DNA of 64,000 nt. Origin: Granulicella mallensis MP5ACTX8 (GTDB lineage: Bacteria; Acidobacteriota; Terriglobia; Terriglobales; Acidobacteriaceae). Location of the stretch: assembly GCF_000178955.2 (NCBI RefSeq), contig NC_016631.1, forward strand, positions 2,914,001 through 2,978,000, given 5' to 3'. The stretch's first letter is position 1; every line of letters begins with the position of its first letter. Under the pieces are notes generated by a model that worked only from the letters and a program-made list of their open reading frames with translations, was not told the DNA's origin and did not search any database. The position numbers and the translations under genes were made by a program. This document shows positions 2,301 through 61,230 of this stretch, piece by piece.

Positions 2301-5179
2301 TACACAGCCTCCCCGGACATTGCCGGAAAATCAATTGCTTCAAGCGCCTCAGCGCAACGCCCGCAGACCGCGGGCCAACGGGCATCAACACCCACATCGG
2401 GAACGACGCGCCAGCAGCGGCCGCACTTGGTGCCTTCGGCAACAGTGGCCCGGATGAGGATCACTTTGTCTTCATTGGTCGCGCCCACAACCTGCACGCT
2501 GGCTTGCGACACGTTGAAGAACTCCGGCAGAGCCTCTTCGTATTTCACGAGCAGGATGGCATCCGCAGAGCCTTCTTGCGCCATGATTTGGATGCTTGCT
2601 TCGAGAGATTTGCCGATAGCCTTCGATAGTCGCAGAGCCTCGAGTTCGACCATGACAATCGAACGAATGGCCAGCAGCCGTTCCCAGTCAGCCTCGATTC
2701 CCGAGACGGTTCCGGGCACGATCTCCTGCATGGCCGGAAACAACGCCAGATGAACGCTGGAAACACGATCCTCCATCTTCGGCAGGTACTGCCAGACCTC
2801 CTCGGCGGTGAACGAGAGGATCGGTGCGATGAGACGGGTCAAGGCTTCGGCGATGCGCCACAGAGAGGTCTGCGCGCTGCGCCGAGCCTGGCTGTTGGGG
2901 GCAAAGGTGTAGAGCCTGTCCTTGATGACATCGAGGTACATCGCGCTGAGATCGGTGTTGATGAATTCATTCAACGCCTGGTAGGCACGATGGAACTCGA
3001 AGTGGTCATAGGAGTTGCGAATCTTCGCATCGAGCTCGGCCGTACGCGCCAGAATGTACTGATCGAGCGGCTGCAGCGCAGCCCACTCCACCGCGTTCTT
3101 TGCTGGATCGAAGTCGAACAGGTTCGAGAGCAGGAAGCGCAGCGTGTTGCGGAGCTTGCGATAGTTCTCACTCACGCGCTGCATCAGACCTTCGCTGGCG
3201 GCAACATCCTCACGGAAGTCGACGCTTGCCACCCAGAGCCGAATGATCTCGCCGCCCAGGCGGTTCGCGACATCGACGGGATCGACGCCGTTGCCCAGCG
3301 ACTTGGAGAAGGCGCGGCCCTGCTCATCGAGCGTCCAGCCGCTCGTTGCCACGTACTTGTAAGGCGCGGAGTCGCGAATGCCTACGGAGCTCAGCAGGGA
3401 AGAGTGGAACCAGCCGCGATGCTGGTCGCCGCCTTCGGTATAAAGATCGGCGGGCCAGTGCAGTTCAGGTTCGACGTCGAGCACGGCATGCCAGCTCGCA
3501 CCGCTCTCGAACCACACGTCGAGAATGTCCATCTCCTTGCGGAACTGCATGACAGCGCCGCAGCTCTTGCATGAGGTTCCCGCCGGAAGCAGTTGCTCGG
3601 CCGAGTGGGAGTACCAGGCGTCGGCGCCTTCGCTCTGAAACAGCTTGACGATGCTGGCGTTGATCTTTGCGTCGTTCAAGGGCTCGTGGCACTTCTCGCA
3701 GAGGAACACGGCGATGGGCACACCCCAGATGCGCTGCCGCGAGATGCACCAGTCGGGTCGCGTGGCGATCATGTTGGAGATGCGTTCTTCGCCCCACGAT
3801 GGGTCCCAGACCACGCGTTTGATCTCGTCGAGCGCACGCTCACGGAACGTCGTGCCCGCGCCCTTGGGCGAGAGTACGGGCGTCTCCATGCCGATGAACC
3901 ACTGCTCCGTTGCACGGAAGATCAGCGGATTGTGGCAGCGCCAGCAGTGCGGATACTTGTGCTCCAGGTTGTGTCGGCCCATCAGCGCGGTTTTTGTCGC
4001 CACCAGCTCGATGATCGGCGCATTCGCCTTATGGACGAACAGGCCGTCGTACTCCGGAAGGCCGTTGCGCAGCTTGCCGTGAGCATCGACGTTGCAGGTC
4101 AGAGGCAGATCGTAGCGCTGGCCTGTTGTAAAGTCGTCCGGGCCGTGCGCGGGAGCGGTATGTACGGCTCCGGTGCCTTGTTCGGTGGTGACGTAATCGG
4201 CGTTGACACCGAGAATCTGGCGATCGAGGAACGGGTGCGCGAAAGTCACGCGGTCCAGCTTCGATCCGGGGAAGCTGGCGATCTCGACTGCGGTCTTCAG
4301 ATCACCGATGAGATTGCACGGTAACCGCACGTCTTCCAGGAGGGCTTTTGCGACAATGTAGACGCCTGAAACGTCATCAATCGCGACGTACTCAATCTCC
4401 GGATTGAAGGCGACAGCCACCGAGGCGGGCAGAGTCCAGGGCGTCGTCGTCCAGATGATGGTGTAGACCTCTTTGCCCGCCAGCCGGGGATCGATATTCT
4501 CGGGGGCGCTCGTCAGCTTGTAGCGGACATAGACGCTGGGCGAGGTGTGCATCTCATACTCCACCTCGGCCTCAGCCAGCGCCGTGTGGTCATGAGAGCA
4601 CCAGTAGACCGGCTTCAGTCCCTTGTAGACGTAGCCCTTTTCGTAGAACCCGTAGAACGTCTCGAGGATGCTGGCCTCATAGGGGAAGTCCATGGTGGCA
4701 TAGGGTTTAGCCCAACGCCCGAAGACCCCCAGCCGCTTGAACTGCGAGCGCTGCAGGTCGATAAACTTCGCCGCGTACTCGCGGCAGGCCTTGCGGACGG
4801 CGACCGGGTCCATCTCCAGCTTTTTGCCGCCCAGCTTCTCGTCGACCTTGATCTCGATGGGAAGGCCATGGCAGTCCCAGCCGGGAACGTAGGGGGCATC
4901 GAAGCCGGCCATCGTCTTAGTCTTGACGACGAAGTCTTTGATGCACTTATTCAGGGCGTGGCCCAGGTGAATCGCGCCATTGGCGTAGGGCGGGCCATCG
5001 TGCAGGATGTACTTCGGGGCGCCTTCGCGCGCGGCCCGAATCTTGGCATACAGATCGTCGGCGTCCCACTGCGCCAGACGTGTAGGCTCATTCTGCGGAA
5101 GGTTCGCCTTCATGGCGAAATCCGTCTTCGGCAGGTTGAGCGTGCTCTTCAAGGTCTTCGTTTCAGGAACTTCCGGCAT
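2300..5179 (-). CDS. ileS: Isoleucyl-tRNA synthetase
   Basis: Charges tRNA-Ile with isoleucine in the cytoplasm. The class I signature HLGH is in PYANGAIHLGHALNK. The KMSKS loop reads AFSKSLGN, with Phe for Met. The editing (CP1) domain is complete, and a C-terminal zinc module CGRCW...CGRC closes the protein. I place the start at MPEVPETK (959 aa) because GGAG lies 7 nt upstream; an in-frame ATG at 5209 would add ten residues with no clear ribosome site. First gene of the ileS-lspA-uvrA chain; no T-box-like leader was recognised in the 260 bp upstream. Confidence 0.97.
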   Translation of the reverse strand: MPEVPETKTLKSTLNLPKTDFAMKANLPQNEPTRLAQWDADDLYAKIRAAREGAPKYILHDGPPYANGAIHLGHALNKCIKDFVVKTKTMAGFDAPYVPGWDCHGLPIEIKVDEKLGGKKLEMDPVAVRKACREYAAKFIDLQRSQFKRLGVFGRWAKPYATMDFPYEASILETFYGFYEKGYVYKGLKPVYWCSHDHTALAEAEVEYEMHTSPSVYVRYKLTSAPENIDPRLAGKEVYTIIWTTTPWTLPASVAVAFNPEIEYVAIDDVSGVYIVAKALLEDVRLPCNLIGDLKTAVEIASFPGSKLDRVTFAHPFLDRQILGVNADYVTTEQGTGAVHTAPAHGPDDFTTGQRYDLPLTCNVDAHGKLRNGLPEYDGLFVHKANAPIIELVATKTALMGRHNLEHKYPHCWRCHNPLIFRATEQWFIGMETPVLSPKGAGTTFRERALDEIKRVVWDPSWGEERISNMIATRPDWCISRQRIWGVPIAVFLCEKCHEPLNDAKINASIVKLFQSEGADAWYSHSAEQLLPAGTSCKSCGAVMQFRKEMDILDVWFESGASWHAVLDVEPELHWPADLYTEGGDQHRGWFHSSLLSSVGIRDSAPYKYVATSGWTLDEQGRAFSKSLGNGVDPVDVANRLGGEIIRLWVASVDFREDVAASEGLMQRVSENYRKLRNTLRFLLSNLFDFDPAKNAVEWAALQPLDQYILARTAELDAKIRNSYDHFEFHRAYQALNEFINTDLSAMYLDVIKDRLYTFAPNSQARRSAQTSLWRIAEALTRLIAPILSFTAEEVWQYLPKMEDRVSSVHLALFPAMQEIVPGTVSGIEADWERLLAIRSIVMVELEALRLSKAIGKSLEASIQIMAQEGSADAILLVKYEEALPEFFNVSQASVQVVGATNEDKVILIRATVAEGTKCGRCWRVVPDVGVDARWPAVCGRCAEALEAIDFPAMSGEAV

Positions 5180-8873: not shown

Positions 8874-10007
8874 CTATAACCGGCCAGCTACTCCCAGCTC
8901 AGCCGCGAAGGCATCCAGGCTCAGGCTGCGCAGCAGGTTACGCCGCATCCCGCTCTGCACCGCGTCCAGACCTCGGACAGCCTCTTCAAGCCACGCAAAA
9001 TCAATGCTTTCTGAAAATCTCCGAAGTTCTTCTCGAATATCGGTATTGCGAATACGCTCGGGGGAACCGCCTTGCAGCAGCAGAACGTCCTCCAGCACGC
9101 TTGCCAGCGCCCGCAGCAGGGCCGTGGTCTTCGCCTGCCCCTCCGCCCCGGCGCGATAGGTCTCGGTCATCCGGAACAGGGAGGAGTGATCGCCGGTCTG
9201 CACCGCTCCGCGCATGATAATCAGCGCATCCGCTCGTGCTGCGACATATTCGGCAAGATTGAAGCCCAGGGCACGTCCGACAGCCCCTTCGCTCAGCCGC
9301 GCCAGCAGGGCACGTTCTGTCTTATTGCTCTCCGGCCGGAGCCGTGTCAGCAGGGTCTCGATCTCCTCTGCGGGAAGGGCCCCCAGGCGCACGATGGCAC
9401 AGCGCGATCGGATCGTCGGAAGCAGCTCGCCGAGGTTCTCCGCAAGAATCAGAATGTGCGCATAGGTCGGCGGCTCTTCCAAAACCTTCAGCAGGGAGTT
9501 GGCCGCCTCTTTCATGAAGGAGGCCGTGGTGATGATGAACACCTTTGCCGGGGCCTCGGAAGGCATGCGCTGGGAGCGGCCGATGAGTGTCCGCACCTGT
9601 CCGAGCTTGATCAGCAACTGCGGTGGATCGGGCGGCAGGATCAGCACGTCAGGATGCGTCTGCACCAGCACGCGCGTGTCTTTCTTGTCGGTCTCGCGCA
9701 TGTCCTCGCGCGCAGCGACGGCCTCTTCGACCTTCTGTTCCAGCTCCGCGCTTTCGGCGATGCGGGTGCAGTTGCGGCAGACGCCGCAGAAGTTTGCCAG
9801 GGGACGTCCATCGGGTGCGATCTCACGCGGTTGCTGTTCGCACTGCAGGGCCATCGTCAGCATGAGCGCGAGAGTGTACTTGCCCGCTCCACGCGGACCG
9901 GCCACGATCATCGAGTGCGGCAGACGTCCGGCAGCAATGGCCGCGCGCAGGCTTTCAACCGTCGAGGGGTTGCCGAGAAACTCCGCAAAGCTGGAAGGAA
10001 TTGCCAT
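8874..10007 (-). CDS. holB: DNA polymerase III subunit delta'
   Basis: Clamp-loader ATPase-fold subunit, 377 aa. It has a P-loop-like GPRGAGKYTLA, a zinc module CGVCRNC, the stretch NSLLKVLEEPPTYAHILIL, and the RSRC motif IRSRCAIVRL typical of clamp-loader subunits. A helical insert of about 25 residues rich in Glu and Lys follows the zinc module. It lies 10 nt downstream of a cytochrome P450 gene, which in turn abuts tmk; tmk and holB are often direct neighbours in bacteria. Confidence 0.92.
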   Translation of the reverse strand: MAIPSSFAEFLGNPSTVESLRAAIAAGRLPHSMIVAGPRGAGKYTLALMLTMALQCEQQPREIAPDGRPLANFCGVCRNCTRIAESAELEQKVEEAVAAREDMRETDKKDTRVLVQTHPDVLILPPDPPQLLIKLGQVRTLIGRSQRMPSEAPAKVFIITTASFMKEAANSLLKVLEEPPTYAHILILAENLGELLPTIRSRCAIVRLGALPAEEIETLLTRLRPESNKTERALLARLSEGAVGRALGFNLAEYVAARADALIIMRGAVQTGDHSSLFRMTETYRAGAEGQAKTTALLRALASVLEDVLLLQGGSPERIRNTDIREELRRFSESIDFAWLEEAVRGLDAVQSGMRRNLLRSLSLDAFAAELGVAGRL

Positions 10008-10017
10008 CCCTTCCAGC

Positions 10018-11463
10018 CTATCGCACCTGGCCGGGGTGTTCCGGCGCGGCTTGAGGAAAGCGCTCGCGCGGAATCATGATCATCGGAAATTTGGGCCGCA
10101 GCGTAATCTTTGCCTGGGCCACGACGGGATAGCGATTCACGAACTCCAGCCGCCACTTCTGCGCGATGGTCGCGAGAGAAAGTACCCCCTCCATCCACGC
10201 AAAGCCTTCTCCGATGCATTGCCGGCGGCCGCCGCCAAAGGGGAAGTACACGAATCGCGGTCGCTCCGCCTTGGCTTCAGGAGTGTGGCGCTCGGGCCGA
10301 AACGCCTCGGGTTCGTCCCAGAACTCGGCGGAACGATGCATGACATATTGGCTGAAGAAGAAATGTGCTCCCGGAGGAATCTTGTACGGGCCAAGCTCAA
10401 CGGCCTTCGTCGATCTTCGTCCCATTGCCCAGGCTGGAGGATAGAGCCGCATCGCCTCCGCAAAGACCATCTCCGTATAGCGCAGGTTGGGATACTCCTG
10501 CATCGTGACGGGCCGGCCTCCAAGCACCTGGTCAATCTCCGCCTCCATACGCTCGGCGACATCGGGATTCTGGCTCAGGAGATACCAGGTCCAGCTCAGT
10601 GCATTGGCAACGGTTTCGTAACCGGCAAGAAAGATCGTCAGCGTCTCATCGCGGAGCTGCTTGTCGCTCATGCCGTCGGGATCGCCTTCTGCCGCCGCTT
10701 CATCTCGCGCGGCCACCAGCTCGGAGAGCAGATCGCCCCGGCTCTCCAGATCTTCCCTTGAGAGCGCCCTGCGACTGGCAATCATGCGCTCCACAATCAC
10801 ATCCAACCGTGCGCGCGAGCGGCGAAACTTCATGACTCCCGGAATCGGCCAGTGCAGCACCCTCTCCAGTCTTGGAAAGGCGACCAGGTAGTTGTAGAGG
10901 CCCATGATTGTGTCGACCTCATCGGCCACAGACAGGACCTCCGGTGTTACCTCGGTATCGAACAGGGTGCGCGCTACGATGCGCAGGCTGAGCTGCATCA
11001 TCGACTCGGCGATATCGAACTCCGTGTCTTTCTTCCATCCTTCGCGCGTCGTGGCCGCACTGGCGGCAATCTGTTCGGCGTAGCCCGCGATCCGCTGGCG
11101 ATGAAAGGCCGGCGCGGCGATGCGCCGTTGGCGCATGTGGATCGGGTCGTCGGAGGTGATCAGCCCTTCGCCCAGCAGGATCTTCATCCGTTGCAGCGTC
11201 CGCTCTTTGACGAAGCTGCCTGCCTGGTTGATCAAGATCTCCTGAATCCAGGCGGGGTCGTTCACAAAGACGATCAAGGTTCCCATGAACCGGTAGTGCG
11301 CAATCGGTCCGAAGGTTTTATGCAGGTGCTCGAACAGGGGAATGGGCTCGCCAAAATTGACCCAGGCGCGCCGCATATAAAAGGGAAGCGCCTTGCGCAG
11401 GCCAGGGGGCAGCCGCCAACTGCCTTCTTCCTTCGCCTGAACGTAATCGTTATTTTCAGCCAT
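10018..11463 (-). CDS. Cytochrome P450
   Basis: 481 aa haem-thiolate monooxygenase without a fused reductase or a membrane anchor. The I-helix reads FLAGYETVANALSW, the K-helix ExxR is EAMRLYPP, the PERF-like motif is FRPERH, and the haem loop FPFGGGRRQCIGEGFA carries the Cys ligand. The pattern resembles the CYP102/CYP4 type that often hydroxylates fatty acids, but substrate cannot be read from the sequence. Its ATG follows the tmk stop codon with no spacer, so it should be translated by coupling to tmk. No ferredoxin or reductase gene is nearby. Confidence 0.95.
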   Translation of the reverse strand: MAENNDYVQAKEEGSWRLPPGLRKALPFYMRRAWVNFGEPIPLFEHLHKTFGPIAHYRFMGTLIVFVNDPAWIQEILINQAGSFVKERTLQRMKILLGEGLITSDDPIHMRQRRIAAPAFHRQRIAGYAEQIAASAATTREGWKKDTEFDIAESMMQLSLRIVARTLFDTEVTPEVLSVADEVDTIMGLYNYLVAFPRLERVLHWPIPGVMKFRRSRARLDVIVERMIASRRALSREDLESRGDLLSELVAARDEAAAEGDPDGMSDKQLRDETLTIFLAGYETVANALSWTWYLLSQNPDVAERMEAEIDQVLGGRPVTMQEYPNLRYTEMVFAEAMRLYPPAWAMGRRSTKAVELGPYKIPPGAHFFFSQYVMHRSAEFWDEPEAFRPERHTPEAKAERPRFVYFPFGGGRRQCIGEGFAWMEGVLSLATIAQKWRLEFVNRYPVVAQAKITLRPKFPMIMIPRERFPQAAPEHPGQVR

Positions 11464-53909: not shown

Positions 53910-54827
53910 ATGCCTCTTGCAAATCCTGTTTTGTTGTTTCTCTCTGTTCTCAGCCTTCCGCTTGCAGCCCAAAGCACTCCTGCGCCAGCCTCGGTTGAGG
54001 CACCTGCAACAGCAACAACTCAGGCTCCAAAGGCCGCACCCAAAGTAATGATCCCTCTGTATATGTCGTCGAAGCGCGCGCTCCTGATGTTGCGTATCGG
54101 CGATCATCCTCCCGTGCCTGTTGTGTTTGATACGGGCACGAACGGCAACCTGATCGATCTCAAGCTGGCCACGTCTCTGCAGCTTCCCAAAGCAGGACCC
54201 TCTCCTTCGATCGATGGCAGCACAGGGAAGCCTGTACCCGGTTTCGACACCTTCATCAAGGGCGCAAGCCTTGGCGGAGTTCCCATCGCCGATGCGAGGG
54301 CGACAGCTCTCGCGTATGACAATACCGACGAGGTCGGCATCTTTGGGCCGAACAGCTTTCCCAACCATCTTGTGCGCATGGAAGGCCTCAAAAGCAGACT
54401 GGTCCTTCAGGAGAAGACCCCCGAGACGATTCCAAGCGGCAAACCCTTCGCCTATCTGGGAACGCACGATGACAGTCTTCCGTCTGCGGTGCTTGATTTT
54501 GGGGAGATCAAGGTAACGGCGATCCTGGACACCGGCAATGATGCGCCCATCATTCTGCCCATGATTTATAAAGATAAGCTGCCTTTGGATGGGGCTCCAG
54601 TACAGATCGGGTTCGCCGTATCGGCAGCAGGCAAGCAGCCGATCTATCAAGCCCGATTGAAAGGTTCCGTCCGGCTTGGGGATGTGAAGTTGGACCAACC
54701 CCAGATCCGCTTCATGGAGGGCGGACGTCCTAACATCGGTCTGCCCATCCTGCGAATGCTCACCGTGGTCTTTGACCCAACGGAATCACGTGACTGGATT
54801 CTGCCGACGGAAGCCCCAAAACCTTAG
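53910..54827 (+). CDS. Secreted aspartyl protease-like protein with two DTG motifs
   Basis: 305 aa. Signal peptide ending LPLAAQS, a Pro/Ala-rich linker, then two lobes each with a DTG: VVFDTGTNGNLIDL (about 75) and AILDTGNDAPIILP (about 210), as in pepsin- or retropepsin-like enzymes. Two lobes in one chain suggest an intramolecular active site. The C-terminal lobe ends with INIGLPILRMLTVVFDP-type stretch. It is probably a periplasmic protease; the substrate is unknown. Bacterial two-DTG proteins are uncommon enough to check. Confidence 0.82.
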   Translation: MPLANPVLLFLSVLSLPLAAQSTPAPASVEAPATATTQAPKAAPKVMIPLYMSSKRALLMLRIGDHPPVPVVFDTGTNGNLIDLKLATSLQLPKAGPSPSIDGSTGKPVPGFDTFIKGASLGGVPIADARATALAYDNTDEVGIFGPNSFPNHLVRMEGLKSRLVLQEKTPETIPSGKPFAYLGTHDDSLPSAVLDFGEIKVTAILDTGNDAPIILPMIYKDKLPLDGAPVQIGFAVSAAGKQPIYQARLKGSVRLGDVKLDQPQIRFMEGGRPNIGLPILRMLTVVFDPTESRDWILPTEAPKP

Positions 54828-54971: not shown

Positions 54972-55394
54972 ATGCCCTACAGCCCATTGCTTGTCAAACC
55001 CTTTCGCGACGAAGTCACCGAAGTTGACGTTCAGGAATTATTGACCTCTCAGGATGTAGATAATTTTTTCAATAACCAGACGGGCTCGGCTCTTCTGTTT
55101 ATCAACTCCGTATGCGGCTGTGCGGCAGGAACGGCGAGGCCGGCACTGCGTCAGGCAAAGGCAAACGGGAATGGAAAAACACCTGATAGGTGGGTGAGTG
55201 TCTTCGCCGGTCAGGACCTTGAGGCCACAGCAAGGGCCAGAGGTTATTTCCCGGATATACCACCTTCGTCTCCATCCATTGCATTATTCAAAGATGGCGA
55301 ACTTGTCTATTTCGTTCCCAAACATCGGATAGAAGGCCGGGATGCGAATGGTCTGGCAAATGATCTGACCAGCGCATTCAGTGAAGTCCTGTAA
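54972..55394 (+). CDS. Bacilliredoxin (BrxA/BrxB family)
   Basis: 140 aa. Thioredoxin-like fold with the CGC active-site motif in VCGCAAGTARPAL, preceded by LLFINSVCGCA, and the cis-Pro segment PSIALFKDGELV. In Bacillus these proteins remove bacillithiol from mixed disulfides; Acidobacteriota encode them as well. GGAGAAATTAG before the ATG is a good ribosome site. Stands alone. Confidence 0.92.
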   Translation: MPYSPLLVKPFRDEVTEVDVQELLTSQDVDNFFNNQTGSALLFINSVCGCAAGTARPALRQAKANGNGKTPDRWVSVFAGQDLEATARARGYFPDIPPSSPSIALFKDGELVYFVPKHRIEGRDANGLANDLTSAFSEVL

Positions 55395-55690: not shown

Positions 55691-56506
55691 ATGAAACGCA
55701 GCCAGAAGTGTTCTCAACGTCTCAGAGCGGGAGTCATTCTGCTGAGTTGCATTGGCCCATGTTTCGCGCAAAATCTGTCGAGCGGGTCAAAGGCTAAACC
55801 GCTGGCGTTCGAGGTAGCTACGGTGAGACCAACTCGGCCGGATTCCACGAACGAGGATTGGGACAGTGAAGGTAACCGCGTCACCATCAAGGGCTATTCT
55901 CTTCGTCAACTGATCAAGGCAGCATTCAACCTGAGGAGCGCCGCACAGATCCTGGGAGGGCCTGAGTGGCTAGACAAACAACGCTTCGACATATTGGCCA
56001 TAATAGACGAGGAACAGGCAACATCCTTTCATGCAGCGGGTGCCGATCGGGATGAGGAGGCTGAAATCCAAATGATGCTGCAGACTCTCCTTTCGGAACG
56101 CTTCAACCTTAGAGTCAAATCTGTTGAGAAAAAACTACCCATATTCGGACTGGTGGTCAGTAGCACTCATACACGGCTCGTTCCGGATTTGGCAAAGCCT
56201 CGCAGCTTATCAATCCGCAACGGACACATGGTTGCAGTCGCGACTTCAATGGACGACATGGCTCAGAGCTTGACACGAATGCGAGAGGTCGGCGATCGAA
56301 TGGTTATCAACCAAACCAGCCTCGTCGGAACCTATGATTTCGACCTCAGCTGGACTCCGGACCGTGGTGCCGGAGTTCCCGAACAAGCTGTTTACCCCGG
56401 CCTCTTCACGGCTCTCCAAGATCAACTAGGGTTGAAATTGAGGCCTGGAAAAGCTGACGCACCAGCTCTTGAAGTTCTCGCGGCGGAGCTTCCACATTTC
56501 GATTGA
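55691..56506 (+). CDS. TIGR03435-family secreted protein
   Basis: 271 aa with signal peptide (GVILLSCIGPCFAQN). Same family signs as the protein at 30076-30933: LAFEVATVRPTRPD, SLRQLIKAAFNL, GGPEWLDKQRFDILAII, MMLQTLLSERFNLRVKSVEKKLP, NQTSLVGTYDFDLSWTP and LGLKLRPGKADAPALEVL. The family's role is unknown. Confidence 0.86.
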   Translation: MKRSQKCSQRLRAGVILLSCIGPCFAQNLSSGSKAKPLAFEVATVRPTRPDSTNEDWDSEGNRVTIKGYSLRQLIKAAFNLRSAAQILGGPEWLDKQRFDILAIIDEEQATSFHAAGADRDEEAEIQMMLQTLLSERFNLRVKSVEKKLPIFGLVVSSTHTRLVPDLAKPRSLSIRNGHMVAVATSMDDMAQSLTRMREVGDRMVINQTSLVGTYDFDLSWTPDRGAGVPEQAVYPGLFTALQDQLGLKLRPGKADAPALEVLAAELPHFD

Positions 56507-57237
56507 TTGATATTGACGCTGCTAGGTTCAGTCCATACAGCGCGATTATCGTGGGATGCTCGCAACGGTCTATGGTCCGGTACGCGTCAATCACTTAGAT
56601 GGACTGTAGAGAGGGCAGTGACTGATTTGCTTTGCAGAAACCGACACTTCAACTTTGCGCTTACAGTGTCACTATACAGAATATCCGTTATCAGACATAG
56701 ATATGCTTTCTGCGCGTTACTCTACTAACGATGGCGCGCTCGATTTGCTCCAAGCGGAACATTCCGAGACTCTAATTGGCTGACCAGCCGCTGCCGTGAA
56801 CCTGAAACAGACGCAGCACGCTCCGAGAGCAAGGTCCGAATCTTTGCACGGTATGGTTCGCTTTCAGGGCGACTTTTCGATCGACTTTGCCTAACCGTGC
56901 GCATTTCCCAATGCTGACGAACATCCTTCTGGCTATTCGTCGCATCAAATTGGGTTGTAAATCCTCTTTCTCATGCGAAGTGAAAATGAGTGGGCGATGT
57001 CGTTCGACGATGCGCCAACGCTATGGTGGGCGTGACATCAAACGATGAGGAATGCTTCTCTTCCGATGTTAGTTTGAACTTCCGACATTGCATCCATGAT
57101 CAATCAGGATTGTCGGCTATGGCTACGGCTCCTACTTGCTCCGCCTACCAGGAAGTAACCGGGAAAAGCTATAGAAATGTGCACATCGAGTTCCAACAAG
57201 CTGCACAGATAGTTCAACATCTCAGGAGGATTCCGCA
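56507..57237. other. Intergenic region before the NHL lipoprotein
   Basis: 731 bp. Short frames (for example 56990-57241, plus) lack good starts and recognisable products. AGGAGG (57224-57229) 8 nt before the next ATG is the only clear signal. It may hold decayed coding sequence. Confidence 0.5.
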
Positions 57238-59133
57238 ATGAAGCATCTTCAATCCGCTCCTTTTTGTTTCGTACTTCTTTTTGGCTTCAGCGCAGGCCTC
57301 ACCGGGTGCAGCATGGGCTCCTTTCAGCCCAGCACCCCCAGCACCGATACTCCAACAGAGATGAGTGGGGCCATCCATGGTGGACAGCAGCCTATCGTGG
57401 GATCTACCGTCACGATGTACGAGACGAACACCAACGGTGCCCCCGGAACGGTGACCAATGGTAGCGTGGTGGTAGGCCAAGCACTTGCGCTCACCGATGC
57501 TAATGGAGCCTTCAATTTTGCGACGACATTGACGTGCAATCCGGGCGGTCAATTGTGGATCGAGGCCGCCGGGGGCGATCCGATAGACGGACCCAAGGGG
57601 ACGACCAACCACCCCGCGGTGCTCCAGGCTGCCGCGTTAGGACCCTGCCCTACTCTCGGAATAAACATTGGCGGTACCTACACTTACGTGTTCATCGATG
57701 AGGTCTCGACCGTGGCGTTCGCTTATGTAGCCGGGCCCTGGTATACCGGCAGCGCACTTAATAGTGCATGGCCGCAGACTACCGCAGGGCAGCTCGGAGT
57801 AGCGCAGGCCTTCGCCACCGCCGGAAACCTTTACGCTATATCGGGCGGCAGCGGTCAGGGATTGGCGAACACGACCACACCTAACGGCAACGGAACTGTT
57901 CCGCAGGCGACCATTCATACGATTGCCAATATCGATGCGGCCTGTATCAACTCCGCCGTCGGGTCTGCCACATGCTCCACGTACTTTGGGGCCACGGGCG
58001 GCAGCACGGCCACGACGAATACGCTGCAGGCGCTGGTCTACATGGCCCGGCACATCGGTGGCGTCCCCGTCGCGACCGTATACCCTCTTCAGCCGACCAC
58101 GCCTCAGTTCTCCCCCAATCTCTCCACCGCGCCCACAAGCTTCGCTCTCGAGGTTCTTTACACCGGCGGTGGAATCAAGGGCCCAGATGGCCCAGGGGGC
58201 ATAGCGATTGATGCCAACAACAATATCTGGATAGCATCGCAGAGTCAGAGTACGGCTGGCATTGGCGAATTTTCGAATCTTGGCGTTGTCAAATCCCCCC
58301 TTCCCAATGGCTGGACAGACTCTTCGCTCTCGGTGGGGACAACTTTCATCACTCTTGGTGGCAACGGCTCTCTCAATGCGATCACGCAAGGCAACAGTTG
58401 TCTTACCTCACTTAATAACAATGGTTCAATAATCTCTGGTGCACCCTGTAACACTGCAATGACGGATACAGAAGGGATCGCAGCGGGCAGCTCCCATCTC
58501 TGGATTGCAGACACCAATTTGAACGAAATCTCTGAGGTGACCACAAGCGCTTACACTGCCACCCTCTCGGGAAATGGACTGAACCATCCTTACGCAGTCG
58601 CAGTGGATGATAGTCAAAATGTGTGGGTCGCGAACTTCTTAGGTAATACGTACTCGAAGTTTACCAGCGCGGGCGTCGCGGTGAGCACCGGAGGCTCAGG
58701 ACTCAATCAACCGGGTTCTGTTGCCCTGGACAAAAGCAGCAACGCGTGGTTTGCCAACAGGAACAACACCAACATTGTTGAATTGAACAGCGCCGGCACA
58801 GCCGTCGCTGGTAGCCCGTTCACTTGTGGAGCCGGAAACGCGTCCGGAATTGCAGTGGATGGTGATGGCAACGTCTTCACCATGGGTTTCACCACGATCT
58901 CCGAGTATACGGCCGCCGGCATTTGCGAATTCCAGTCAGTTCCAGCGGTGGGTGGGGGCGGAACGAGAGGAATTGTCGCAGTTCTTAGCGGTCTGGCGAT
59001 CGACGGGTCCGGCAATATCTGGTTCTCAAGCTCTACCGGGAACCAAGTGGGGGAAATTATCGGCATGGCAGCCCCCGTGGTGACACCGCTTGCCCTCGCC
59101 GCCAACAACGGTACACTGGGTACCCGTCCCTAA
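57238..59133 (+). CDS. NHL-repeat (beta-propeller) lipoprotein
   Basis: 631 aa. Lipobox at LTGC (about residue 23), so it should be lipid-anchored. A Cna-B/carboxypeptidase-regulatory-like region (about 40-110; MSGAIHGGQQPIVGSTVTMY) is followed by a propeller of NHL-type repeats from residue 300 (GPGGIAIDANNNIWIAS, HPYAVAVDDSQNVWVAN, QPGSVALDKSSNAWFAN, ASGIAVDGDGNVFTMG, LSGLAIDGSGNIWFSS). It ends AAPVVTPLALAANNGTLGTRP, a Pro-rich, apparently disordered tail. It precedes the XrtJ-type exosortase genes on the same strand. AGGAGG is a strong ribosome site. Confidence 0.88.
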   Translation: MKHLQSAPFCFVLLFGFSAGLTGCSMGSFQPSTPSTDTPTEMSGAIHGGQQPIVGSTVTMYETNTNGAPGTVTNGSVVVGQALALTDANGAFNFATTLTCNPGGQLWIEAAGGDPIDGPKGTTNHPAVLQAAALGPCPTLGINIGGTYTYVFIDEVSTVAFAYVAGPWYTGSALNSAWPQTTAGQLGVAQAFATAGNLYAISGGSGQGLANTTTPNGNGTVPQATIHTIANIDAACINSAVGSATCSTYFGATGGSTATTNTLQALVYMARHIGGVPVATVYPLQPTTPQFSPNLSTAPTSFALEVLYTGGGIKGPDGPGGIAIDANNNIWIASQSQSTAGIGEFSNLGVVKSPLPNGWTDSSLSVGTTFITLGGNGSLNAITQGNSCLTSLNNNGSIISGAPCNTAMTDTEGIAAGSSHLWIADTNLNEISEVTTSAYTATLSGNGLNHPYAVAVDDSQNVWVANFLGNTYSKFTSAGVAVSTGGSGLNQPGSVALDKSSNAWFANRNNTNIVELNSAGTAVAGSPFTCGAGNASGIAVDGDGNVFTMGFTTISEYTAAGICEFQSVPAVGGGGTRGIVAVLSGLAIDGSGNIWFSSSTGNQVGEIIGMAAPVVTPLALAANNGTLGTRP

Positions 59134-59227
59134 CGGTGGCTCCAGCATCACAGTCTGCTTTCACAAGAACCTCTGTCCTTTCGTCGACCATAGCCGCGCA
59201 ACTATATGAATTCACAGGAGCCAATTA

Positions 59228-59419
59228 ATGAATGCCATACAATTCCGCTTTCTTGCAGCTCTATCGCTTCTACTCGCCGCTACATCTGCATATGCACAGG
59301 GAGGCTGCTCCGACTCACCGGAGGCTCCGACTTATGTCCTGATGTTGGTCGGCTCGGTCGGCATGTTCTACGGTTCTTCAGTGCTGATGAAACTTGTTCG
59401 CCGCAAGCGCAGCTGCTGA
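59228..59419 (+). CDS. Small TM-motif-TM protein, likely XrtJ-associated
   Basis: 63 aa. A signal-like helix (RFLAALSLLLAATSAYAQG), then SPEAPTYVLM with a short PEAP motif, a second membrane helix (LMLVGSVGMFYGSSVLM) and a basic tail ending KLVRRKRSC. This is the layout of a protein-sorting signal (motif, TM, Arg cluster) and fits the family described as XrtJ-associated TM-motif-TM proteins. It may be a substrate or accessory of the exosortase 158 bp downstream. The Cys at the end and GGC after the signal are extra features. Ribosome site AGGAG 8 nt upstream. Confidence 0.75.
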   Translation: MNAIQFRFLAALSLLLAATSAYAQGGCSDSPEAPTYVLMLVGSVGMFYGSSVLMKLVRRKRSC

Positions 59420-59577
59420 TATCTGAGGCTGGCGGCTCAATTGGACGCAGGTGATCTCGACAGTTGACTAACTCTAGTTGCAGAGTGAGGTCGAGTTGCG
59501 AGGGTACTATTCACAAACTAATTTTAAATCAGTTGAAGCCAGATCATGCTTCTGATTCTCGAGCCACTGATGACCCC

Positions 59578-61230
59578 ATGCCACCAGTGATCGCACGCAG
59601 CACTTACACGTGGGGCAGTCGTGATGGAATGTCCGCTTATGGCATCGCGGTACTGGTAACCATTGGTAGTGTGTCGTTGCTTCCTCTGTGGCTAATCATT
59701 GGACATCTTTGGGCGACCGACCCGCTCCGTTCGATCGGAGCATTATTCCCCTTCGTCAGTCTGATCGGCGTGGTGGCTGCTTGGCGACGGCTCGGTTGGA
59801 ATCTCGATGGAAGCTTGTGGGGAATACTGCTTGTGGGGCTATCCATTCTTCTCGCCCACGTGATAAGCGTATCGAATTTAGTCATCTTTTTTCAATCTGA
59901 ACGGATTGGCCTGTTGCATCCCGGCGCAGTATTGTTCCTCTATGGAGCCGGAGTTACGGTGCTTTTTGGCGGGGTCCGTCTCTTACGTGTCGGGATAGCG
60001 CCCCTTTGCCTACTGTTTTTCATCGATCCAGTACCGCAATTCTTTAATTCTGCGGTAGATCTACCGTTGCAGGAGCTTTCGGCTTTGACGGCGCGCGCAT
60101 TTTCCCATCTGATCGGGCTCAACCCGACTGGTGCTCAGCTTCGCATGATGTTTGCGCCGGATTTTGGCATGCTGATCGTGCCTGGCTGCAATGGGGTTCG
60201 AGGCTCGATTACTCTCGCGTACTTAGTACTGATCTTTGGCTACAGCCGACGCCTGCGCCCTCGCAATCTTGGTCTCATCACATTGGCTGCAGGTCTTCTG
60301 GGCTATGGACTCAACCTGCTCCGACTCTGTGTGCTCGTTCTCTATTACAAGCTTGGACTCGAGGTCCCCTCCATCCAGCGATATGGTGTCGAGATCGACT
60401 ACCTCATTGGTTGCAGTCTCTTCTTGATAACGACGCTTGGTCTCGGACTGCTTATCCGTTCGCTCGAGCCGCGTTTCGAAATTCACGATGTACGGGAAAA
60501 ATCCACGGTCGCAACCCATGTCCCGACTACTTCCAACAGCCGCCAAGCCACGGTAGTCCAGATCGCCTGCTTTGTCGCGCTCGTAATGGCGTTCATTTTG
60601 CCAGCGAGCCGCTCGCTCAAAGTTGCGCCCTCTATGCGTCCCAAAGAGTCGGAGATACTCGCGGCATTTCCGACGACAGTAGGGCCATATCGACTGATCC
60701 GTACTTACTCAGAACACGATAGTACAGGCATGATCGTACTTGGGCTGGGTGAGTATGAAGCGACGAATGCGACGACATCCGCGGCCACTCATCTTACATT
60801 AGGTCTTTGGGTCGCATCCGCCGACCACCTTGTTGCCCACAGCAAAGCAACTCAGGGATTACGGCCTGACTGGACTGGATCTTTCGATGCGACCGCGCTC
60901 CAGTCAATACCGATTGACTTCGCAAGCACCTTCTACGACGACGGTATCAGCCGACAGTACAACGCAGAGGCTATCTGTTCCGCCGGTGGCTGTGTGGCCC
61001 ATGTAATTGGCTCCGGCAAGCAAGGTGCATTCTTTAGCGCTACCGGGGTGCGAGATCTTTTGTTTGTCTCTTCCGGCAAGCGTTTGCCAATTTTTCTCCG
61101 TGGAGATTGGCCGGATAGTGACCCGACCCAATCGTCCAACCTACGAACTCAATTCGAATCTGATTCGCGAGTTTTCATGGAACACCTCGATATTTTGCCT
61201 CTTCTGATGTCACTTGGGTCCCGAACCTGA
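59578..61230 (+). CDS. xrtJ: Exosortase, XrtJ type
   Basis: 550 aa from MPPVIARSTYTWG; a TTG at 59464 in frame is less likely. About eight membrane helices. The exosortase core has the proposed catalytic Cys in IVPGCNGVRGSITLAYLV and the conserved Arg in LGYGLNLLRLCVLVLYY; the site where other exosortases carry a His reads IDYLIGCSLF. The C-terminal ~200 residues (from about 355) form an EpsI-like extracytoplasmic domain (VGPYRLIRTY, HLTLGLWVA). Exosortases process proteins with C-terminal sorting motifs, linked to surface glycans. XrtJ assignment rests on the partner and the Acidobacteriota context. Confidence 0.8.
   Translation: MPPVIARSTYTWGSRDGMSAYGIAVLVTIGSVSLLPLWLIIGHLWATDPLRSIGALFPFVSLIGVVAAWRRLGWNLDGSLWGILLVGLSILLAHVISVSNLVIFFQSERIGLLHPGAVLFLYGAGVTVLFGGVRLLRVGIAPLCLLFFIDPVPQFFNSAVDLPLQELSALTARAFSHLIGLNPTGAQLRMMFAPDFGMLIVPGCNGVRGSITLAYLVLIFGYSRRLRPRNLGLITLAAGLLGYGLNLLRLCVLVLYYKLGLEVPSIQRYGVEIDYLIGCSLFLITTLGLGLLIRSLEPRFEIHDVREKSTVATHVPTTSNSRQATVVQIACFVALVMAFILPASRSLKVAPSMRPKESEILAAFPTTVGPYRLIRTYSEHDSTGMIVLGLGEYEATNATTSAATHLTLGLWVASADHLVAHSKATQGLRPDWTGSFDATALQSIPIDFASTFYDDGISRQYNAEAICSAGGCVAHVIGSGKQGAFFSATGVRDLLFVSSGKRLPIFLRGDWPDSDPTQSSNLRTQFESDSRVFMEHLDILPLLMSLGSRT

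Follow-up and report, generated by a model that had tools for sequence, protein, structure and literature searches.

The window analyzed here is a 64,000-nucleotide stretch of the Granulicella mallensis MP5ACTX8 genome (genome code G000:C1:2914001-2978000; the genome is one contig of 6,237,577 bases), and it contains a gene for an exosortase of the XrtJ type that is preceded on the same strand by a gene for a 63-amino acid protein carrying a PExPT motif. The two genes recur together in other genomes, the XrtJ family has Asp where EpsH-type exosortases have a His at the third catalytic position, and the mini-protein may itself be the whole substrate of the enzyme. A gene for an NHL-type lipoprotein, with its own ribosome-binding site, completes the run of three co-oriented genes that an initial annotation, made from the nucleotide sequence alone, had delineated, and the genes, sites and residues of the locus are as follows.

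57224..57229, plus strand: ribosome-binding site AGGAGG of the lipoprotein gene, 5' of its ATG, from the sequence
57238..59133, plus strand: NHL-type propeller lipoprotein, 631 amino acids, lipobox LTGC; the family recurs near xrtJ and has at least 20 members in the G. mallensis genome
59216..59220, plus strand: ribosome-binding site AGGAG of the tiny gene, from the sequence
59228..59419, plus strand: 63-amino acid PExPT-CTERM protein (signal peptide, 11-residue ectopeptide, transmembrane helix, RRKR tail); TIGR04200, anatomy from the sequence
59297..59329, plus strand: predicted peptide QGGCSDSPEAP after signal peptidase and exosortase; putative cuts between AxA and Q and, in the PExPT motif, between P and T
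59464..61230, plus strand: exosortase J (XrtJ), alternative starts at 59578 and 59629; TIGR04199, PF09721
60187..60189, plus strand: XrtJ Cys of C-x-G, putative nucleophile; 61/61 XrtJ
60322..60324, plus strand: XrtJ Arg of N-x-x-R; 61/61 XrtJ
60397..60399, plus strand: XrtJ Asp of D-x-x-x-G at the exosortase His position (H-x-x-x-G); Asp in 61/61 XrtJ
60544..61227, plus strand: XrtJ C-terminal domain, possibly a distant EpsI relative; His and C-x4-C invariant in 52/52 aligned XrtJ

The assignment of the enzyme to the XrtJ type is borne out by the NCBIfam model TIGR04199, which matches over its whole length (model positions 1-522 of 522) with 879.4 bits and an expectation value (E) of 9.6e-265, against a curated cut-off of 200. 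The enzyme also exceeds the cut-offs of two superfamily models, PF09721 (86 bits, cut-off 25.7) and TIGR04178 (37, cut-off 23), and it falls below that of TIGR02602 (8TM_EpsH; 39.6 versus 105.55). Three start candidates, TTG at 59464 and ATG at 59578 and 59629, precede the stop at 61230, and the TIGR04199 match begins at residue 61 of the protein read from the TTG. The 63-amino acid protein matches TIGR04200, named targ_of_XrtJ, with 80.5 bits (E 5.6e-23; curated cut-off 40) and no other NCBIfam model at E 0.1, the PEP-CTERM model TIGR02595 included. It runs from a signal helix ending in SAYA through QGGCSDSPEAP, a T and a hydrophobic stretch to a KLVRRKRSC tail, which is the build of signal helix, SPEAPTY motif, membrane helix and RRKR tail that had been recognized by inspection. 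The pair is thus already catalogued in NCBIfam, with both window proteins far above the cut-offs of TIGR04199 and TIGR04200, and the TIGR04199 scores, 880-916 bits for the three G. mallensis copies against 720 in the next genome, suggest that G. mallensis contributed to the founding sequences. A literature search, judged partly from titles and abstract openings, found no published study of the XrtJ/PExPT pair and no exosortase study in Acidobacteria, in keeping with the earlier remark that this subgroup is uncharacterized.

Recurrence of the pair and conservation of the mini-protein

Scanning genome contigs with ten XrtJ sequences yielded 60 loci, nearly all acidobacterial by title and not independent, several being strains of one species. 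A profile built from 11 tiny proteins, which itself contains the PExPT motif, detected a relative of the 63-amino acid protein at 50 of the 60, and in 45 of these the tiny gene lies directly upstream of xrtJ on the same strand (43 with a gap between -250 and 300 bases, including the second XrtJ of L081, and L047 and L106 by reading). Four of the others have an NHL-family gene in between, and one (L077) has the tiny gene on the other strand. The neighborhood predicted from the single locus is thus a recurring one. Among 150 genomes of the family, with XrtJ taken at E 1e-20 and tiny genes over their cut-off, 9 genomes have both genes, 1 has only the tiny gene (G089), 1 has only an XrtJ-like piece (G141) and 139 have neither, for a Fisher p of 1.2e-12 with kinship ignored; XrtJ exceeds TIGR04199's own cut-off in only 7 of the 150, and the case of both genes in G011 is one of a non-XrtJ exosortase. 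Chance as an explanation is rejected by the model E-values and the recurrence. Over cut-off, the G. mallensis genome carries XrtJ and the tiny gene three times each, with two adjacent pairs, that of the window and one at C1:242929-244774, and a lone tiny gene without XrtJ at C1:5286324. In G352 (C14, about 9796-10229; L173/L187) two tiny PExPT genes stand in tandem about 400 bases apart. Three of the loci (L066, L079, L104) come from bins labeled Verrucomicrobia and Rhodanobacteraceae, and the NHL proteins encoded there are placed among acidobacterial ones; the bins are probably mislabeled, gene transfer being the alternative.

The tiny proteins share a conserved core, C-x-[DN]-S-P-E-x-P-T, that follows the signal-peptidase site. 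The PExPT motif is found in all 51 hits of the motif-holding profile, its P, E, P and T are invariant in the 50 distinct homologues, and a Cys stands four residues ahead of P-E in 49 of the 50 and one residue earlier in that of L094. Mean pairwise identity among these 50, counted ungapped from the motif and hence in a way that favors the core, is 0.82 over the nine-residue core, 0.43 over the next 16 residues (the helix) and 0.24 over the preceding 16. Most homologues have an AxA-type signal-peptidase site and then Gln directly before the core, and in 31 of 48 distinct signatures exactly 11 residues, as computed, separate that site from the P-T junction; the cut rule used put the signal-peptidase site in the wrong place, or overlooked it, in some of these signatures. 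The signal-peptidase and exosortase cut sites are predictions from these motifs.

The initial annotation had reasoned that so short a protein would leave nearly nothing outside after cleavage and might be a partner with a structural or regulatory role, not a cargo. It would then stay uncut and act as an activator of XrtJ or as a small subunit in the membrane, a pseudo-substrate occupying or shaping the active site, while the true cargo would bear other signals. The tight linkage at most loci, the near-constant length of the protein and the scant remainder after a cut are what such a partner would show, and Flavobacterium XrtF also has an adjacent partner protein, with targets that are not known (PMC12188702, PMC10936215). 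However, the PExPT motif, not the helices, is where conservation is highest, tiny genes that are not beside any xrtJ occur in G000, G064 and G140, and several paralogues away from any xrtJ head polysaccharide operons, so that an unprocessed partner appears unlikely. The evidence leans instead to the tiny protein being the whole substrate, because its processing-site region is the most conserved, its Cys is conserved, some genomes have several copies, and paralogues far from xrtJ head polysaccharide operons.

A different fate for a processed product would be secretion, the tiny protein being the precursor of a pheromone-like signaling peptide that two cuts free as QGGCSDSPEAP or a near relative. 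The short and near-constant length, the single Cys and the two likely flanking processing sites are suggestive of such a precursor. The sequence is nearly the same across many species, though, whereas most pheromones are not near-constant across species; no receptor- or regulator-like family was seen by eye to recur around xrtJ, where most families went unnamed by search; and the polysaccharide operons would be left unexplained, all of which makes a signaling peptide improbable.

The third catalytic position and the C-terminal domain of XrtJ

The invariant motifs of EpsH are C-x-G, N-x-x-R and H-x-x-x-G (Haft 2006, PMC1569441). We compared 61 XrtJ, namely that of the window, those of 59 further loci and the second copy in L081, and found C-x-G and N-x-x-R kept in all 61, which agrees with the Cys and Arg expected from the window sequence. 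The third motif is D-x-x-x-G in all 61, with Asp for His, so the H-x-x-x-G of EpsH is absent from the family. The His had already been noted as replaced in the window copy, and a degenerate enzyme there was considered and rejected: because Asp is found in every XrtJ compared, the loss of His is no peculiarity of this copy. Among the other acidobacterial exosortases, the 30 best-scoring ones all have His at this position, and the Asp variant was also found in two divergent relatives, from G070 and G011. By score the G011 relative is nearer to XrtA and XrtW than to XrtJ, and it is adjoined by a tiny protein without Cys, a case by which the Asp may track the mini-protein partner instead of the XrtJ model. 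At this locus (L214, G011:C15:6000-20000) the Cys-less mini-protein has a PENPT motif, and genes for a DUF3485 (EpsI) protein, a GNVR-type kinase and a Wzy_C protein lie nearby. A third residue other than His has a precedent, since Haloferax archaeosortase A (ArtA), with critical residues Cys173, Arg214 and Arg253 (PMC9263693), uses Arg253, the place of which we infer to correspond to that of the XrtJ Asp.

Searched against the PDB, XrtJ gave no sequence match at E 1 and no fold match at E 0.001. An AlphaFold2 model has a mean predicted local distance difference test score of 84.9 and a predicted template modeling score of 0.85, and the Cys segment is among its least sure parts, with residues 199-204 below 50.

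The protein had been described as an exosortase fused to an EpsI-like domain, and while the exosortase part stands, the EpsI-like part has no model match: none of six XrtJ (that of the window and five others) matches the EpsI models PF11984 and TIGR02914 at E 1, and PF11984 has no match in the G. mallensis genome at E 0.001. A comparison of the C-terminal domain with EpsI by hhalign is weak (probability 13.6, P 0.0021) but colinear through FPxxxG and HxxxxC, and one against a single EpsI-like sequence is not significant; the domain may be distantly related to EpsI. Besides the His and C-x4-C that are invariant in the aligned XrtJ, an H-x4-C element is found in 44 of the 52; the window enzyme has Ser for its Cys, and this Cys is also missing from its two nearest relatives, L047 and L048, among 8 of 52 in all. 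A remnant with the XrtJ C-terminal domain only is found in L212 (G141:C16:668000-678000, around 3400-4970), beside reading frames that by eye are transposase-like, and G141 has no tiny gene over cut-off.

Paralogues, longer cargo and the neighboring lipoprotein

Eleven tiny genes away from xrtJ, eight of them of the PECPT type, were fetched with their surroundings. Five of them (L201, L202, L204, L205, L207) are followed immediately, in the same orientation, by a gene whose product has Poly_export and SLBB domains (five of five by Pfam), and further along there are a GNVR protein (L202), a Wzz protein (L205) and a Wzy_C protein (L201) over cut-off, as well as a Wzz/GNVR match (L207) and a Wzy_C match (L204) below it; in both L205 and L207 the third gene stayed unmatched. 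The lone G. mallensis tiny gene of L013 heads a run that encodes a nucleotidyltransferase, a hexapeptide transferase, a glycosyltransferase 9, a sugar transferase and one unmatched protein; its relative L203 has part of the same run, and the tiny gene of L210 has an NHL protein in its surroundings. Such a polysaccharide context fits the connection between exosortases and exopolysaccharide described in the literature (PMC1569441, PMC12188702, PMC9850573).

The strict pattern C-x-[DN]-x-P-E-x-P-T, read as DNA, occurs at three places in the G. mallensis genome, each of them a tiny gene, and at 37 places in 23 of 25 further genomes, with no match in the reversed control in either set. Of the 37, 30 were read and comprise 28 mini-proteins and two proteins without a helix (L163, L170), and for two of the remaining seven (L207, L209) the motif and near surroundings were seen. 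No longer protein with the motif is present among the 33 of 40 matches read from the 26 genomes, so a long cargo with the tiny-protein motif was not found in G. mallensis or in the matches read from the 25 others, and the G. mallensis genome has no PEP-CTERM protein over cut-off. Because the strict pattern found nothing in two of the 25 genomes, G343 and G360, which have known tiny genes, a variant cargo signal is possible.

The upstream gene of the window had been annotated as an NHL lipoprotein and third member of the unit, and here the picture is mixed. The LTGC lipobox is present, and of the propeller models PF01436 (14.7, cut-off 20) and Vgb_lyase (34, cut-off 50) score below cut-off and Reg_prop PF07494 above it (24.1, cut-off 20.4); a relative in L065 scores 68 with PF01436. 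NHL-family relatives are present at 34 of 61 XrtJ loci including the window, most of them directly downstream of xrtJ by eye, so that the family, as a neighbor of the pair, bears out the annotation. XrtJ might on this basis deliver its peptide to the NHL lipoprotein, or the NHL protein might bind the processed peptide, and it is in favor of such a three-gene unit that the xrtJ neighbor is the sole NHL-family homologue at E 1e-10 in Edaphobacter lichenicola G337 and G338, and that tiny genes without xrtJ nearby stand beside an NHL-family gene by BLAST in G089, where the neighbor protein has no Pfam hit, and on G070 contig 36. Set against these are the 17 loci of a second kind, which have a 1000-residue BamA-like protein and no NHL-family gene in the DNA examined, and the size of the family in G. 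mallensis, where 38 matching pieces were found and 19 paralogous genes read besides that of the window. The window copy forms a long branch, and its grouping with the usual XrtJ neighbors, a clade chosen after the tree had been seen, is neither supported nor rejected (approximately unbiased test, p-AU 0.465). We regard the three-gene unit as quite unlikely, and with many paralogues and an uninformative grouping test, the place of the window NHL gene beside the pair may be meaningful or due to chance.

The BamA-like neighbor, which in G. mallensis is POTRA/Omp85 by Pfam, was set aside as a partner because bamA often lies near frr, a gene named by eye close to it, and the link may be positional. 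Seven NHL-lipoprotein paralogues stand in tandem in L150 (G000:C1:5134000-5150500), one with an internal stop, and most family members that were read share a conserved C-terminus, P-V/I-x-T-P with Pro further on as the last residue (commonly in LGTRP). This conserved end may serve either in structure or as a terminal signal. Further 5' in the window lie genes for an aspartyl-protease-like protein (53910-54827), a bacilliredoxin of the BrxA/BrxB family (54972-55394) and a protein of the DUF3738/TIGR03435 paralogue family (55691-56506).

Proposed substrate processing by XrtJ and its relation to known systems

With EpsH and its PEP-CTERM proteins (Haft 2006, PMC1569441) the XrtJ pair has in common a multi-spanning enzyme with C-x-G and N-x-x-R, a substrate built of signal peptide, Pro-Glu motif, helix and basic tail, and a link to polysaccharide. 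PEP-CTERM signals, however, occur on diverse proteins, with a median of eight and up to sixty-five per genome (PMC1569441), whereas the putative XrtJ substrates found are mini-proteins without any other domain, and it is by this lack of cargo and by the Asp for the His of H-x-x-x-G that XrtJ/PExPT is set apart. Archaeosortase A of Haloferax (PMC9263693) belongs to the same superfamily and likewise has a third critical residue other than His, but there it is Arg, and the substrates are large, such as the S-layer glycoprotein. The MYXO-CTERM signal also combines an invariant Cys, a helix and an Arg-rich tail, and its Cys is required for cleavage, with lipidation proposed, though myxosortase is a CAAX/Rce1-kind protease unrelated to exosortases and dozens of proteins per genome are tagged (PMC11980579). 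Flavobacterium XrtF is likewise an exosortase with a dedicated neighbor, and its targets are not known (PMC10936215); deletion of xrtF or the partner gene reduced biofilm and sand colonization.

We tentatively favor, at somewhat less than an even chance, a reading in which XrtJ processes its mini-substrates into a short Cys-bearing peptide that serves surface-polysaccharide export. The recurrent pairing is observed, and the remaining steps are predicted. The tiny protein would be exported by Sec and cut by signal peptidase I between AYA and Q, after which its C-terminal helix would keep PExPT positioned on the outer side of the inner membrane. XrtJ, with its Cys, Arg and Asp, would then cut at PExPT, probably between P and T, and transfer the 11-residue, single-Cys peptide QGGCSDSPEAP to an acceptor. 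The likeliest acceptor is a lipid or a component of the surface-polysaccharide export route, and the peptide would act in the export or retention of polysaccharide. For exosortases as a class, the nature of the group attached to the substrate is unsettled (PMC11980579).

Several observations weigh against this reading. Ten XrtJ loci are without the tiny gene (L048, L061, L066, L069, L071, L072, L074, L078, L087, L089), nine of them with readable upstream DNA, since the L089 contig starts at xrtJ; L061 is among the nine, as is L048, whose enzyme is second closest to that of the window, and a looser six-frame look at the ten for P-[ED]-x-P, helix and basic tail gave only one doubtful frame, in L072. 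The L048 and L066 genomes carry tiny genes elsewhere. In G. mallensis itself one XrtJ (C1:5897805) lacks a tiny gene, the tiny gene of G089 comes with no XrtJ match at E 1e-20, and the Cys-less tiny protein of G011 adjoins an exosortase other than XrtJ. As for polysaccharide, 3 of the 11 tiny genes away from xrtJ (L206, L208, L209) have no such genes among the neighbors tested or read, and no polysaccharide-export gene is found among the window genes tested beside the pair, so that the link rests on the paralogues. Asp for His makes an unusual catalytic set in an enzyme whose activity, like the cleavage, the transfer and any phenotype of the pair, is predicted.

A bolder form of the reading, which we consider rather doubtful, is that XrtJ is a sorting enzyme without any protein cargo, whose Cys-Arg-Asp site would attach the peptide to a lipid- or polymer-linked glycan or to a lipid and give the exported polymer a free-thiol tag. 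If this were true, several tiny paralogues would tag different polymers from different operons in one cell.

The family names XrtJ and PExPT are already in use, and what sets the pair apart from the EpsH/PEP-CTERM kind is the family-wide Asp for His and the probable substrate without cargo. If the mini-proteins are substrates, miniature partners would leave only a short peptide, in contrast to the large anchored surface proteins that are usual for exosortases, and with a substrate of about 60 residues and a product of one short peptide the pair would offer a very small, testable exosortase case. The invariant Asp raises the question whether a single superfamily can use His, Arg or Asp as its third catalytic residue, and the paralogues ahead of Wza-type export genes offer a starting point for genetic work on a polysaccharide role in Acidobacteria.

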